A DNA stretch of 64,000 bases from Acidobacteriota bacterium (lineage in GTDB: Bacteria > Acidobacteriota > Terriglobia > Terriglobales > Acidobacteriaceae). The notes beneath the pieces are model-generated. The model made no database searches. It was not told the origin of the DNA and saw only the letters and a list, made by a program, of their open reading frames with translations. Location of the stretch: positions 1-64,000 of the forward strand of contig QIAU01000145.1 in assembly GCA_003225055.1 (NCBI GenBank). Reading direction: 5' to 3'. The translations under genes and the position numbers were made by a program. This document shows, one piece after another, positions 20,612 through 40,721 of this stretch (the stretch's first letter is position 1; each line of letters begins with the position of its first letter).

Positions 20612-21006
20612 TGTGGGCAGCTGGGCCGGACGGTCGCTCCCGGCAAGGGAGAGGAAAGTCCGAACTCCGCAGAGCAGTGTGCCGGATAACGTCCGGGAGG
20701 CCGGGTTCAAGCCCGTCCGACGGAAAGTGCCACAGAAAACATACCGCCTGGGCTGCGAAGTCCGGGTAAGGGTGAAAAGGTGCGGCAAGAGCGCACCGCC
20801 GCCGCAGTAATGCGGCGGGCAGGGCAAACCCCACATGGAGCAAGACCAAATAGGGAGGAAGTTCCGGCTTCGGCTGGACGCGTGTCGGCTCGGTGCGCCA
20901 AACCTCCGGGTAGGTCGCTAGAGCTGTGCAGCAATGCGCGGCCCAGAGGAATGGCCGTCCTGCCGGATCTTCCGGCAGACAGAATTCGGCTTATAGGTCC
21001 GGCTGC
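20612..21006 (+). ncRNA. rnpB: RNase P RNA (bacterial type A)
   Basis: The RNA subunit of RNase P, which cleaves tRNA 5' leaders. Conserved blocks appear in order: GAGGAAAGTCCGAACTCC at 20651, CACAGAAAACATACCGCC at 20731, GGTAAGGGTGAAAAGGTGCG near 20764, AAGAGCGCACCG, AGGGCAAACCCC at 20821, and the 3' block AGAATTCGGCTTATAGGTCC at 20981. The length of about 395 nt fits type A. The ends are approximate. Confidence 0.95.
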
Positions 21007-21321
21007 CACACTTCTTTTCAAGCTTCAATAATCGGTTTTCAAAGGATCGGTTTTCTTTATCGGTTTTGACTCCCGGACCTTACGGGAGCACAATTCGCCC
21101 GCATCGCCTCTCCGAAGAGCAGTTTCCAAGCGTTCGGAATGCAACACCCTGAGGCGAACGGTTAGTCACGCCGATCTAGAAGCGAACCCAATCGGAAAAC
21201 TTCGACCAAGACCGCTCTCTGCCAGGGGGGAGTGCAGCATGTACGAGCATGTATCGCATGTACATAAAGATGGAATGTGTGTACATTGGTGGTATGCAAG
21301 GGGTCGGAAGGGGACACTTTG
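21007..21321. other. Spacer between rnpB and the toxin-antitoxin pair
   Basis: Contains three direct copies of ATCGGTTTT at 21031, 21046 and 21059, and the putative vapBC operator repeats at 21237-21285. No gene seen. Confidence 0.5.
21237..21285. promoter_or_regulatory. Phased GCATGTA repeats, putative vapBC operator
   Basis: GCATGTA occurs at 21237, 21247 and 21256, i.e. about one helical turn apart. The last copy extends into the palindrome ATGTACAT (21258-21265). A further TGTACA follows at 21280. Iterated sites like this upstream of an antitoxin gene fit cooperative autoregulation by VapB or VapBC. Confidence 0.5.
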
Positions 21322-36755: not shown

Positions 36756-38024
36756 TCAAGCGGCAATCTTCAGGGATGTAACGTTCCCCTTCAGCACGCC
36801 AGAATCGGAAATGCACCGCAAGGCGTCCCGCACCGCGCCTTCGCTGGAAAGGAGAGTGAGAATCGTGACCCGGTTATTCATTGCCGGATTTTTTGCCCAG
36901 CTCGCAGCGGCCCGGGCTACCCCGACGTGGTGCTTCTCCAGAATCGCGCTGATGGAACCGATCGCGCTGGGCTCCTCCACCGGGAAGCGGAGATAATGCT
37001 GGCATTCTGTGTTCCGTTTGGACGTCTCGAGTGCGCGGCCGGAGATGCGTGGGAAGGCTCTTCGGCGGCTCGCGATTTCTACGATGTCGGATAGAACCGC
37101 ACTGGCGCTGGGCAAGGAACCCGCGCCTTTGCCGTGGAAAAAGATCTCGCCCACAGCATCGCCTTTGACCAGAACCGCATTATTTTCGTCGCGAACCGAA
37201 GCAAGCGGGTGGTTGTTGGGAAGAAGTACGGGGTGGACACGCAGAGAAACGGCTTGCGTATCGGACTGCGCGTGAGCGACCTGTTTGATCGTGTAGCCCC
37301 ACTTGCGTGCGGCTTCTACATCCTCAGCGGTGATGTTGCGAATGCCTTCCACCTCGACCGAGTCGGGCGGCAGGGCGCCGCCGAAGGCAAGCTCGGAGAG
37401 GATTTTAAGTTTCTGGGCAGCATCGTAGCCGTCAACATCCAACGTGGGATCGGCTTCGGCGAAGCCCTCGGCTTGCGCTTTCTTCAGAGCTTCTTCAAGG
37501 CTCACCCCGGCTTCGCTCATGCGTGTGAGAATGTAGTTGCAGGTGCCGTTCAGAATTCCGGTGATGCTTTCGATGTGGTTGCCAACCAGGCCGCCCTCGA
37601 GGGCACGGACAATCGGGATGCCCCCGCACACGCTGGCTTCGAAACCAAACTGCACACGCTGCTCGGCAGCAGCTCTGAGTAGGGCCATGCCATCAGCCGC
37701 GAGCAGTGCCTTGTTTGCCGTGACAACATGTTTGCGATTGGATAGCGCATGCCGGATAAAAGTTCGGGCTGGTTCCAGACCTCCAACTAACTCGACCACC
37801 ATATCGCATCCGTTGTTGATCACCTTTTCGGGGTGGGTGGTCAGGAGGTCGTAATCAACTCCGGGACGCTTCTTGCCCGGATCGCGCACGAGAATTTGCG
37901 TGAAGCGCAGGTCAATGCCGGCGCGCTCGCGGATCAACGCGCGATTGCGCGCAACGAGTTCGACCAGACCCTGGCCGACCGTCCCGCAACCGAGCAGACC
38001 GAGTTTGTAGTGCCGAACAGACAT
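36756..38024 (-). CDS. hom: Homoserine dehydrogenase with ACT domain
   Basis: 422 aa. Reduces aspartate semialdehyde to homoserine, the branch point to threonine and methionine. NAD(P) motif GLLGCGTVGQGLVELV; catalytic domain with HVVTANKALLAADG, GGIPIVRALEGGLVGN, ILNGTCNYILTRM and AEADPTLDVDGYDAAQKLKI. The C-terminal ACT domain (YLRFPVEEPSAIGSISAILE) allows allosteric control, often by threonine. It follows the sulfur carrier gene by 29 bp in the operon thrC-carrier-hom. Confidence 0.96.
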   Translation of the reverse strand: MSVRHYKLGLLGCGTVGQGLVELVARNRALIRERAGIDLRFTQILVRDPGKKRPGVDYDLLTTHPEKVINNGCDMVVELVGGLEPARTFIRHALSNRKHVVTANKALLAADGMALLRAAAEQRVQFGFEASVCGGIPIVRALEGGLVGNHIESITGILNGTCNYILTRMSEAGVSLEEALKKAQAEGFAEADPTLDVDGYDAAQKLKILSELAFGGALPPDSVEVEGIRNITAEDVEAARKWGYTIKQVAHAQSDTQAVSLRVHPVLLPNNHPLASVRDENNAVLVKGDAVGEIFFHGKGAGSLPSASAVLSDIVEIASRRRAFPRISGRALETSKRNTECQHYLRFPVEEPSAIGSISAILEKHHVGVARAAASWAKNPAMNNRVTILTLLSSEGAVRDALRCISDSGVLKGNVTSLKIAA

Positions 38025-38053: not shown

Positions 38054-38335
38054 CTAGTTACAGCCGCCTGCGATCGACGGCACCAACAGCACCTCATCTC
38101 CATCCTGGAATGCGTAGCTCGGGCCACCCAGGAATCGGATGTCTTCCTCGTTCACATAAATATTCAGGAAGCGGCGCACCTGGCCGGTCTCGTCGCGCAA
38201 GTGCGGTTTAAGGTCGGGAAATTTTTCGTCCAAGGCGGAGAACAGTTCTCCGAGATTGGATGCGCTACATTCCACCTGTCCGACTCCGGCGGTATGACGC
38301 CGCAATGCACTGGGGATTTGTACTCTGATGCTCAT
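38054..38335 (-). CDS. ThiS/MoaD-family sulfur carrier ending GGCN
   Basis: 93 aa beta-grasp protein (MSIRVQIPSALRRHTAGVGQ ... FLNIYVNEEDIRFLGG ... DGDEVLLVPSIAGGCN). Sulfur carriers need a free C-terminal Gly-Gly for thiocarboxylation. Here two residues follow (Gly90-Gly91-Cys92-Asn93). This matches QbsE and HcyS, where a JAMM-type protease first trims the tail. It overlaps thrC by 4 bp and precedes hom by 29 bp. The whole operon is under a SAM riboswitch, so a role in homocysteine or methionine synthesis is a strong inference. The protease is not in this window. Confidence 0.85.
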   Translation of the reverse strand: MSIRVQIPSALRRHTAGVGQVECSASNLGELFSALDEKFPDLKPHLRDETGQVRRFLNIYVNEEDIRFLGGPSYAFQDGDEVLLVPSIAGGCN

Positions 38336-39594
38336 GCGGATGCCTCCACGGGCGCTGGAACTTCCAGCGCGTTCTGCAAAAAGGTTTCAAAAGCGGTGAT
38401 CTTGGGCGCGATCGGTTCTTCCGCTTCGTAGTGGCCAACCAGCGCGTCGGTCGTCTTCAGCCCGTTGCCGGTGATGCACAAGACGGTAGTCTCGTCGGGC
38501 GCAATGCGGCCTTGCTGGTAGAGTTTGCGAGCCGTGCCGACCGTGACTCCGCCCGCGGTTTCGGTGAAGATGCCTTCCCTTTCCGCAAGCAGCTGGATGG
38601 ATTCGACGATCTCGGGATCGGAGACATCTTCGGACCAGCCTCCGCTGCCGGTGATCGCCCGAATCGCATAGTGCCCGTCGGCGGGATTGCCGATAGCAAG
38701 CGAGCGGGCAATTGTCGAGGGTCTCTGCGGCAGAATTTCTTCCTGGGCTCCCTTCACTGCCGTCGAGATTGGCGAACATCCTGTCGCCTGAGCCCCGAAG
38801 AACCTAACCTGCTTCTTCTCGACCAGGCCAAGCGTGATCAGCTCGTCAAAAGCTTTCTTGATCTTTGTGATTAGCGAGCCGCCGGCCATGGGTACTACTA
38901 CGTTATCCGGCAAACGCCAGCCAAGTTGTTCGGCGATTTCAAAGCCTACTGTTTTTGAGCCCTCGGCGTAATACGGACGCAGGTTGACGTTCACAAAGCC
39001 CCAGCGATGCTCGTCGGCGATCTGCGAGCAGAGGCGATTGACTTGATCGTAACTGCCGGCGATGCGCACCAGCTGAGCTCCGTAGACCTGGGTGCCGAGC
39101 ACCTTGGCCGGCTCAAGATCGGCAGGAACAAAGATCCAGGCCTTGAACCCTTCTCGCGCAGCCTGAGCGGCCACGGCATTGGCCAGATTGCCGGTCGAGG
39201 AGCAGGCGACCGTATCGAATCCAAAGCTGCGGGCCTGGGCAAGCGCGACCGCGACTACCCGGTCCTTGAAGCTCAAAGTCGGCAGGCAGACCGCGTCGTT
39301 CTTGATCGAGAGCCGCTTTGCGCCCAGTTCTTTCGCCAGATGCGGCGCGCTGATCAGCGGCGTAAATCCGGTCGGCAATGACGGGTGGAAATCCTTTGGC
39401 AGCGGTAGCAGTTCGGCATAGCGCCACATGTTGGGCGGGCGCCGGGCAATCTGCTCGCGCGAAATTCTGGCGCGCAGGCCGTCGTAGTCATAGGTAACTT
39501 CGAGTGGAGAGAAGCAGCCTTCGCAGATCGAGCGCGGCTGGTTACCCCACAATTTGCCGCACTCGCGGCAGCGCAGTTCGTAGGAGGTGCTCAT
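38332..39594 (-). CDS. thrC: Threonine synthase
   Basis: 420 aa PLP enzyme converting O-phosphohomoserine to threonine. A small N-terminal zinc ribbon (Cys9, Cys12, Cys24, Cys27) precedes the fold, as in several thrC of this class. The PLP lysine is in LPTLSFKDRVV; the phosphate-binding loop is ACSSTGNLANAVAA, and VVPMAGGSLITKIKKAFD follows. First gene of the operon, with ATGA overlap to the carrier gene. Its leader holds a SAM-I riboswitch, unusual for a threonine gene unless the operon also makes methionine. Confidence 0.95.
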   Translation of the reverse strand: MSTSYELRCRECGKLWGNQPRSICEGCFSPLEVTYDYDGLRARISREQIARRPPNMWRYAELLPLPKDFHPSLPTGFTPLISAPHLAKELGAKRLSIKNDAVCLPTLSFKDRVVAVALAQARSFGFDTVACSSTGNLANAVAAQAAREGFKAWIFVPADLEPAKVLGTQVYGAQLVRIAGSYDQVNRLCSQIADEHRWGFVNVNLRPYYAEGSKTVGFEIAEQLGWRLPDNVVVPMAGGSLITKIKKAFDELITLGLVEKKQVRFFGAQATGCSPISTAVKGAQEEILPQRPSTIARSLAIGNPADGHYAIRAITGSGGWSEDVSDPEIVESIQLLAEREGIFTETAGGVTVGTARKLYQQGRIAPDETTVLCITGNGLKTTDALVGHYEAEEPIAPKITAFETFLQNALEVPAPVEASA

Positions 39595-39641
39595 CAGCTA
39601 CTCTTTCGCGAGTAACTGAGGACGAGCCCGGAAAAGAGAGT

Positions 39642-39684
39642 CCTTAAAAAGGGAAACCTCTTTTCCCGGAATAAGGAAAAGAGG
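39642..39684 (-). terminator. Intrinsic terminator in the thrC leader
   Basis: On the minus strand, arms CCTCTTTTCC and GGAAAAGAGG form a 10-bp stem with a 7-8 nt loop (39657-39684), followed after six bases by a run of five Us. It lies 30 bp downstream of the SAM aptamer and about 50 bp before the thrC ATG, in the position expected of a riboswitch expression platform. Confidence 0.8.
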
Positions 39685-39713
39685 CTGCGAAGTGCTTACG
39701 GCTTGCACCCCGA

Positions 39714-39827
39714 ATCTCATGTTCCCCGCTACCGGGCGAGAGTTGACACCGGACGACCGGGATATATGATCCCGATCCGGTTGTCGTGGCTTCGCAGGGC
39801 TCGTCCCTCAGCCACTCTTCATGAAAT
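39714..39827 (-). promoter_or_regulatory. SAM-I (S-box) riboswitch
   Basis: On the minus strand the P1 strands ATTTCATG (39827-39820) and CATGAGAT (39721-39714) pair over 8 bp, with one G-U. Between them lie the S-box core blocks AGAGTGGCTGAGGGACGAG, GCCCTGCGAAGCCACG, CAACC, the P3 hairpin around ATCGGGATCATATATCCCGG, and GGTGTCAACTC. The order, spacing and 114-nt length fit the SAM-I aptamer. SAM binding would favour the downstream terminator and switch off thrC-carrier-hom. Confidence 0.88.
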
Positions 39828-39830
39828 CCA

Positions 39831-40721
39831 GGTCTGCTCAAAACGAGCAAACTTGTGATGATGATGGTACCTAGGAGGTGGGTATGATGTCAACAACGGA
39901 AAATCTGATCTGCGGAGAATCTGATCTGTCTGATCTGTACGGAATCTGTACCGGGCGTAGCGAAGTTTTCAATTCGTCGTATCCAACTTCAGACCACGCC
40001 GCGAGCACTGCTCTAGCTACCAGCTTCATGTCAGCAGTCGTGAGGGCCAGAGAATCTAGGCCATCAAAATTCTCGTCTACCTTTGCCCCTCCGATCTTGC
40101 CGGACATGGTCCGCACCTTGCCCCACCATTCTTTGACGCCATCCTCTTCAACGACTGCGTAACAGCACCGGAGACATCCGCCGACTGCCTTGTCTGTCTG
40201 CCACAAAGGTGCAGTCCGTGTTTTTCATCCAGTGCCCATTTGCCCAGACATCAGCAAATCCTTCACCGTGGTACATGTATCGTCAAGATGATGTCACCTG
40301 CACGCAGTGACAGCTCAGGGATCCCTTTCAGAACTCGAATTACGCCGTTTTTTTGTTGTGTGCACTCCCCTCAAGCCTGCAACTTTCTGTCCCTTCAGCA
40401 TCCTCCTGATCGCGGTGCGATTTGATTCCCAGGAGTTGAAGAGGACCGTATCGGCGATGACTTTCCACTCTCCGACGTACACCCTTCGAATGGACAGGCA
40501 TTCTTCTCTATCGCGGGCACATCAGGCCGATTCAATGACCGCGATGCTCTTGTTGTATTGCTTTACGTAAACGCAGCTTGACTGACCAGGAGCAGAAAAA
40601 TCAAAGCCAGGTCGCGCATGTAGGCAATGCTACCTCTGTCCGAACAGCCGGAGTCCGCATAAGAAACAGGCGGCAAAACCGAACTAATCCGGATTGCAGG
40701 ATCCGGTTGGTCGGCCCTTTC
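39831..40721. other. Long gene-free region between thrC leader and ddl
   Basis: Nearly 900 bp without a supported gene. A 111-codon frame on the minus strand (39871-40206) has no family features and mixed composition. ATCTGATCTG words repeat at 39903-39945. Some minus-strand text around 40420-40500 looks protein-like in one frame (EWKVIADTVLFNSWESNR) but is broken by stops, so a relic is possible. Confidence 0.5.

Follow-up and report, generated by a model that had tools for sequence, protein, structure and literature searches.

The locus studied here lies on the minus strand of the window, the 64,000-nucleotide stretch of an Acidobacteriota contig that we analysed. From 39893 to 36756, a promoter-like site, a SAM-I riboswitch, a terminator-like hairpin, a gene resembling threonine synthase (ThrC-like), a sulfur carrier gene, and a homoserine dehydrogenase gene (hom) follow one another:

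39864..39893, minus strand: sigma-70-like promoter (TTGACA, 18 nt, TACCAT), a consensus match only, at 10/12 positions
39714..39827, minus strand: SAM-I (S-box) riboswitch aptamer (RF00162, 70.8 bits, gathering score 44.4 bits)
39675..39725, minus strand: predicted antiterminator, formed by the P1 3' strand and the terminator 5' arm (nascent-transcript folds, -16.6 kcal/mol)
39645..39686, minus strand: expression platform, with a hairpin resembling an intrinsic terminator and a U run (13-pair stem 39686-39655, T-rich tail TCCCTTTTTA)
38332..39594, minus strand: putative metM-type gene (thrC, threonine synthase, in databases), 420 aa (TIGR00260, 266 bits; member of an 81-row clade)
38054..38335, minus strand: putative metO-type sulfur carrier gene, 93 aa, C-terminus ...SIAGG-CN (PF02597, 46.4 bits)
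36756..38024, minus strand: hom, homoserine dehydrogenase (PF00742, 221 bits; PRK06349, 461.6 bits, cut-off 205)

The aptamer matches the RF00162 covariance model over its full length (model positions 1-108 of 108, E 1.6e-14, cmscan against Rfam), followed by a terminator-type platform, and the RNA shows no difference from the SAM-I family. It is the sole SAM-I match in the whole assembly (7.41 Mb in 301 contigs, 98.7% complete). An 8-bp P1 (39827-39820 with 39721-39714) appears both in the RF00162 alignment and when the leader is folded freely; this fold, at -80.3 kcal/mol, is more stable than that of any of 200 shuffled sequences (-60.65 ± 4.44). An earlier, sequence-only reading of this DNA had proposed the 8-bp P1, the S-box core, a U-run terminator behind the aptamer, and the gene order thrC, ThiS/MoaD-type carrier, hom, and had suggested a minus-strand search with RF00162; all of these proposals stand, the terminator as a predicted hairpin. 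Two overlapping terminator-like sites fall within the 441-nt leader stretch (0.5 ± 0.6 in shuffles), and between 33300 and 39700 seven such sites occur against 7.2 expected by chance, the leader hairpin having the most pairs. A consensus scan of the 441-nt stretch found two promoter-like sites, one per strand (0.2 ± 0.5 in shuffles). When nascent transcripts of growing length are folded, the antiterminator is displaced by the terminator at -28.6 kcal/mol, and in the platform predicted from these folds and the hairpin, P1 and the antiterminator are mutually exclusive. Since this is the usual S-box layout, a SAM-bound P1 should mean termination, and we infer that SAM would switch the operon off. 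The genes under SAM-I control here are not among the commonest methionine-related targets. A second structured RNA, the bacterial RNase P class A RNA, is found elsewhere in the window (20618-21009, plus strand, 282 bits).

The start of the carrier gene overlaps the stop of the ThrC-like gene (38332-38335). After a gap of 29 nt behind the carrier comes hom, which is one of three copies in the genome (three PF00742 matches). Across 30 carrier loci of the class, viewed with 1.5-kb flanks, hom stands behind the carrier in two, the window and G244. We also collected 80 named loci, the best 80 of 586, by searching genome contigs with an alignment of ten members; hom lies near the metM-type gene in three of these, all Nitrospirota (L134, L142, and L190). 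It is an optional passenger of the metM/metO pair. The idea that SAM control regulates homoserine supply only was rejected, given this rarity of hom beside the pair in the class and the three hom genes of the genome.

Curated models name the first gene threonine synthase: its product passes TIGR00260 (cut-off 167 bits) and falls just under the PRK08197 cut-off (295.9 vs 303). The TIGR00260 match is unable to settle the choice between MetM and ThrC. Five further relatives of the 420-aa protein are encoded in the genome. One (L080, 34% identity) scores 561.9 against the PRK08197 cut-off, and another (L081, 32% identity) scores 271.6 on TIGR00260 and is directly followed by a homoserine kinase gene, thrB (TIGR00191, 226.5 bits). 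A third ThrC-like paralogue (L082, 30% identity) stays below the threonine synthase cut-offs, and two more are weaker. The need for threonine can be met by L080 and L081. A 91-protein tree places the window protein in a clade of 81 rows (support 100/100) that includes relatives from 13 named phyla, among them Nonomuraea and 25 cyanobacterial rows. All 10 threonine-synthase-type rows lie outside it, including those of Thermus thermophilus (1uim) and Bacillus subtilis (6cgq), L080, and L081. The threonine synthases have long branches, and we rely solely on the 100/100 branch that unites the 81 rows. A stop or length filter removed L136, which belongs to the 80 named loci, and paralogue L082 was left out. 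Twenty-five alignment columns are at least 95% fixed within the clade and common to at most one of the ten outside proteins. Residues T88, S155, and R160 of T. thermophilus ThrC, which we take to be active-site residues, correspond to L137, N204, and Y209 in the window protein, a possible change of the active site that serves as a lead only.

The 'thrC' gene is most likely a MetM-type homocysteine synthase rather than a threonine synthase. The sequence-only reading had called it thrC, a name at odds with a fully supported clade apart from the genome's two clear threonine synthases and the two solved ones. It had also found SAM control of a threonine synthase odd and had made homoserine the key product of the operon. 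Because the first gene very probably forms homocysteine, homocysteine would be the key product and its control by SAM would not be odd; that hom adjoins the pair so rarely in the class also speaks against homoserine. What stands of that reading is SAM-I control and a methionine route via a protein thiocarboxylate, an interpretation that is well supported; its product and its key gene are replaced.

The carrier belongs to the beta-grasp ThiS family and has the Gly-Gly motif, followed by Cys-Asn. Its closest solved relative is chain 3dwg_C (E 1.1e-19), presumably CysO of Mycobacterium tuberculosis. Among the best 80 of 586 loci, all 23 adjacent cyanobacterial carriers end exactly at GG, and 15 of 17 adjacent acidobacterial carriers do not. 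The GG-CN tail and the acidobacterial carriers that mostly do not end at GG make trimming likely, a step known for the tails behind Gly-Gly of HcyS and QbsE. The operon has no protease gene for the two residues past Gly-Gly, and trimming and loading would take place in trans; a CysM-JAMM-CysO-MoeBR cluster elsewhere in the genome, on contig 23, could be the source of both protease and E1. The genome has four other ThiS/MoaD-family matches, and the operon carrier is unlikely to serve thiamine or molybdopterin. A search of phage sequences with the carrier gave no match.

Gene and carrier are widely linked. Of the best 80 of 586 loci, 70 have a carrier no more than 300 nt behind the metM-type gene; they come from 13 named phyla and include 23 of the 25 cyanobacterial loci; of the remaining ten, four have a carrier farther off or cut by a contig end and six have none. 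With a SAM-I model built from 22 sequences, none of them among the 80, a riboswitch was found upstream in 26 of these best 80 of 586 loci, at 74-244 nt in 25 and at 1002 nt in the 26th, where another gene intervenes. By phylum, the riboswitch is present at 14 of 20 loci of Acidobacteriota and 0 of 25 of Cyanobacteriota. Neighbouring genes, at most four per locus and named by best BLAST match, include MoeB-like genes at at least 18 of the best 80 of 586 loci, CysM-like at at least 10, JAMM-like at at least 4, and hom at at least 3.

The closest precedent comes from Streptomyces albulus, in which, as Hasebe and colleagues reportedly found in 2024, MetO is the thiocarboxylate donor for MetM. Those parts of PMC12172450 that describe the system credit Hasebe et al. 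2024 (doi 10.1128/aem.01247-24) with the discovery of MetM, a homocysteine synthase of Streptomyces. They state that S. albulus metM has a SAM riboswitch upstream, that O-phosphohomoserine is the substrate from which MetM forms homocysteine, that metO, a gene for a carrier, is present, and that homologues occur in cyanobacteria (PMC12172450). As far as this description goes, the two systems have in common a ThrC-like enzyme followed by a carrier, an upstream SAM riboswitch, and O-phosphohomoserine as the proposed substrate; the window operon differs in having hom as a third gene, a carrier ending GG-CN (GG in Nonomuraea), a host of another phylum, and an activity that is predicted. Our comparison with S. 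albulus MetM is by description, with a locus of Nonomuraea gerenzanensis as a stand-in for sequence: a SAM-I riboswitch (68.7 bits) is followed there by an enzyme 52.5% identical to that of the window and then by a carrier ending AVAGG. This locus came from a plasmid search, on a chromosome-sized record filed as a plasmid, and is the sole close actinobacterial relative there. The published MetM/MetO system and the matching Nonomuraea locus together make it very probable that the window operon is itself a MetM/MetO system, with the same mode of action.

In vitro, a homologue from Microcystis aeruginosa, 51.6% identical to S. albulus MetM, yields threonine and 2-ketobutyrate. The authors, in the part of the article that covers it, doubt a full MetM role in vivo and favour threonine synthase plus deaminase activity (PMC12172450). 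The gene pair described there, ThrC with a MetO-like carrier, is the same as in the window, and its enzyme would belong to the same clade, judging by the 25 cyanobacterial rows. The cyanobacterial loci among the best 80 of 586 have no SAM riboswitch (0/25) and carriers that end at GG, unlike the window with its SAM-I and GG-CN.

In M. tuberculosis, CysM, CysO, and Mec synthesise cysteine from a phosphorylated amino acid. Like that system, the window operon pairs a PLP enzyme of fold-type II with a carrier resembling CysO; its enzyme is of ThrC rather than CysM type, the proposed reaction is a gamma rather than a beta replacement, and the genome has its separate CysM-JAMM-CysO-MoeBR cluster. 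The HcyS/HcyD/HcyF-MetY methionine route of Wolinella succinogenes, which Krishnamoorthy and Begley are said to have described in 2011, draws the sulfur of homocysteine from a thiocarboxylate. Wolinella HcyS carries a residue behind Gly-Gly, and the acceptor is a PF01053 protein, MetY, acting on O-acetylhomoserine. Protein-thiocarboxylate sulfur for homocysteine, here proposed, and a carrier with residues past Gly-Gly are common to both; no clear Wolinella-type pair of MetX and MetY was found in the window genome, in which the best MetX match has E 1.6e-29, no intact PF01053 protein passes the O-acetylhomoserine sulfhydrylase cut-off, and the operon holds no PF01053 gene. A literature search that covered few subscription journals found nothing that joins Acidobacteriota, a SAM riboswitch, and such a carrier. 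The enzyme pair is known from Streptomyces; new here is a probable acidobacterial member with a dedicated hom and a GG-CN carrier.

To place the operon in its class, we searched a sample of 250 genomes, counting the window-type gene at E 1e-110 or better, a threshold at which cut or diverged copies are missed. The gene was found in 137 genomes, and SAM-I matches numbered 132, in 124 genomes. In 94 cases (94 of the 137 genes and 94 of the 132 matches) the riboswitch lies 85-272 nt upstream of the gene; 43 of the 137 genomes have the gene with no SAM-I match upstream. In at least four genomes SAM-I stands directly before a lone carrier. For the 38 matches not before a window-type gene, the downstream DNA of up to 30 was inspected; genes behind the class SAM-I matches were called with a simple gene caller. 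Behind the riboswitch, thrB is found in L096, and a homoserine kinase gene also in L107; an aspartate kinase gene follows the riboswitch in L096 and L106. The SAM-I unit of L110 encodes a MoeB/ThiF-like E1 under its curated cut-off and a cysteine desulfurase over its own, and that of L112, which has no metM, an E1-like protein and a cysteine desulfurase over the SufS cut-off. Kinase, E1, and desulfurase are parts needed for a reaction of O-phosphohomoserine with a thiocarboxylate. In genomes of two genera (L107 and L108) the gene shares one SAM-I unit with metY, metX, metW, and thrB, with no adjacent carrier.

Other SAM-I loci of the class have different contents. In L211 and L212 the riboswitch precedes cysteine desulfurase-like genes (that of L211 nearest NifS, under the cut-off); in these two and in L112, SAM seems to control the provision of sulfur as such. 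L109 (genome G046) has CysM-like and JAMM-like genes and a 485-aa frame with a carrier-like start and a MoeB-rhodanese match, a fusion that leaves the carrier no free C-terminus unless cleaved. In L111, SAM-I stands before the gene for a protein of some 517 aa with no NCBIfam match at E 1e-20, which is conserved at 46-56% in four other genomes (L213, L216, L217, and L218) of f5, a family in which most genomes bear MetX. A weak SAM-I match (51.4 bits) in L219 (G194) has sufB and sufC, each scoring above its cut-off, downstream of it, with some 900 nt to the first of them.

The distribution of the gene was set beside that of MetX and MetA. Profile searches gave for the window genome no MetA match and no clear MetX, its best match scoring at background level, well under the break in the list of scores. 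MetX scores across the sample lie at 340 bits or more, with two partial matches at 257 and 177, and then at 163 or less; the curated cut-off of 500 was reached by 0/250 genomes and 0/14 control genomes, and presence was counted at three thresholds. The window-type gene alone was found in 126 genomes, MetX/MetA alone in 78, both in 11, and neither in 35 (odds ratio 0.039, p 4e-25, uncorrected for kinship); with MetX thresholds of 340 and 130 bits the odds ratios are 0.043 and 0.11. Counted by genus (95 genera; two genomes have no genus label), the corresponding figures are 41, 35, 9, and 10. In one family of 55 genomes, the window-type gene is found in none at E 1e-110 and MetX/MetA in 54. Some assemblies are fragmentary; G144, for instance, entered the counts under MetX alone although it has a truncated metM-type gene behind SAM-I. 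The window-type gene and MetX/MetA thus largely exclude each other, kinship uncorrected. A further candidate, the DUF39/HcyBio route, was rejected: the family has no match in the window genome and was found in 0/250 genomes of the sample and in 3/14 control genomes.

Eleven of the 35 genomes with neither have a SAM-I riboswitch directly followed by an aspartate-kinase-like and/or a cystathionine-gamma-synthase-like gene, and so seem to use another route. The order is SAM-I, kinase, PF01053 in L099, L115, L203, and L204, and SAM-I, PF01053 in L100, L101, L202, L206, L207, L214, and L215. The kinase-like protein of L099 has 274 aa and matches only the first 254 of 407 model positions; loci of this type look like transsulfuration, perhaps from O-phosphohomoserine, with a kinase that has no regulatory half. 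A like arrangement (SAM-I with a kinase-like and/or PF01053 gene) occurs in L201 and L209, in genomes with a MetA match.

We consider it highly probable that this operon is of the MetM/MetO type, makes homocysteine, and is repressed by SAM. The dedicated hom and the other copies would supply homoserine, which the product of thrB, encoded elsewhere (a copy is seen at L081), would phosphorylate. Once the residues past Gly-Gly had been removed, an E1 would adenylate MetO, which would then take up sulfur as a thiocarboxylate; the MoeB-rhodanese and JAMM proteins encoded in the CysO-type cluster of contig 23 are the probable agents. MetM would then exchange the phosphate of O-phosphohomoserine for the sulfur of MetO, and the resulting homocysteine would be methylated to methionine and converted to SAM. 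With enough SAM, P1 would close, the terminator would be freed, and the operon would stop.

Three other explanations have to be weighed. A cystathionine gamma-synthase that uses O-phosphohomoserine could be the main source of homocysteine here, the operon being auxiliary. Proteins of the cystathionine gamma-lyase/synthase type (L009 and L010) and a beta-lyase (L011) are indeed encoded in the genome, and other genomes of the class place such a protein behind SAM-I (L099-L101, L115, and others). We nevertheless regard this as improbable, since none of L009, L010, and L011 is near the genome's only SAM-I, and the position of L009 after a CBS-like gene (so called by its sequence) would suit reverse transsulfuration.

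It is also doubtful, to a high degree, that the first gene encodes a true or bifunctional threonine synthase, with the riboswitch adjusting homoserine flow and the carrier a mere neighbour. The TIGR00260 and PRK08197 scores, and the threonine formed by the Microcystis protein as described in part in PMC12172450, are what such an enzyme would give. Against it stand the two other genes over the cut-off, one beside thrB, and the third paralogue below; the separate clade; the linkage to a carrier across 13 named phyla in 70 of the best 80 of 586 loci; the riboswitch before lone carriers; and the rarity of the gene together with MetX/MetA. A threonine synthase would explain none of these. The L107/L108 units, the Microcystis threonine, and the 43 genes lacking SAM-I count against the MetM/MetO reading, as do the TIGR00260 score, the GG-CN tail in an operon that has no protease gene, and the lyase-type proteins of the genome; the first three do not favour a plain threonine synthase, but the MetM-type protein may have a double activity.

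Very remote is the third explanation, that the carrier is loaded but serves as sulfur donor to a different enzyme (a PF01053 sulfhydrylase, as in Wolinella HcyS/MetY, or the contig-23 CysM), the ThrC-like gene being only co-operonic: the relatedness to 3dwg_C (CysO), the CysM-JAMM-CysO-MoeBR cluster, and three intact PF01053 proteins plus one in two pieces would fit it, but the operon has no PF01053 gene, 0/3 intact PF01053 proteins reach the O-acetylhomoserine sulfhydrylase cut-off, the broken one is nearest cystathionine gamma-lyase, MetX/MetA were not clearly found, and the CysO cluster has its own carrier.

The MetM/MetO reading can be extended to the whole sulfur economy of these bacteria, a proposal that is finely balanced and against which we lean slightly. 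In many genomes of the class, sulfur for cysteine (CysM/CysO) and for methionine (MetM/MetO) might both come from protein thiocarboxylates served by a common JAMM protease and a common E1-rhodanese, with the short tail of a pro-MetO first being trimmed off behind Gly-Gly; the sole SAM-I of the genome would put the methionine half under the control of SAM, with the dedicated hom lying in the same operon.

If the MetM/MetO assignment is true, the 'threonine synthase' of curated models is a misnamed methionine enzyme in many relatives, the close ones coming from 14 named phyla among the best 80 of 586 loci. A SAM riboswitch before 'thrC' would then be found because SAM-I in this class mostly marks a homocysteine-forming module (94 of 132 matches), and 137 of 250 class genomes would have a homocysteine route that pathway tools expecting MetX/MetA call a gap.
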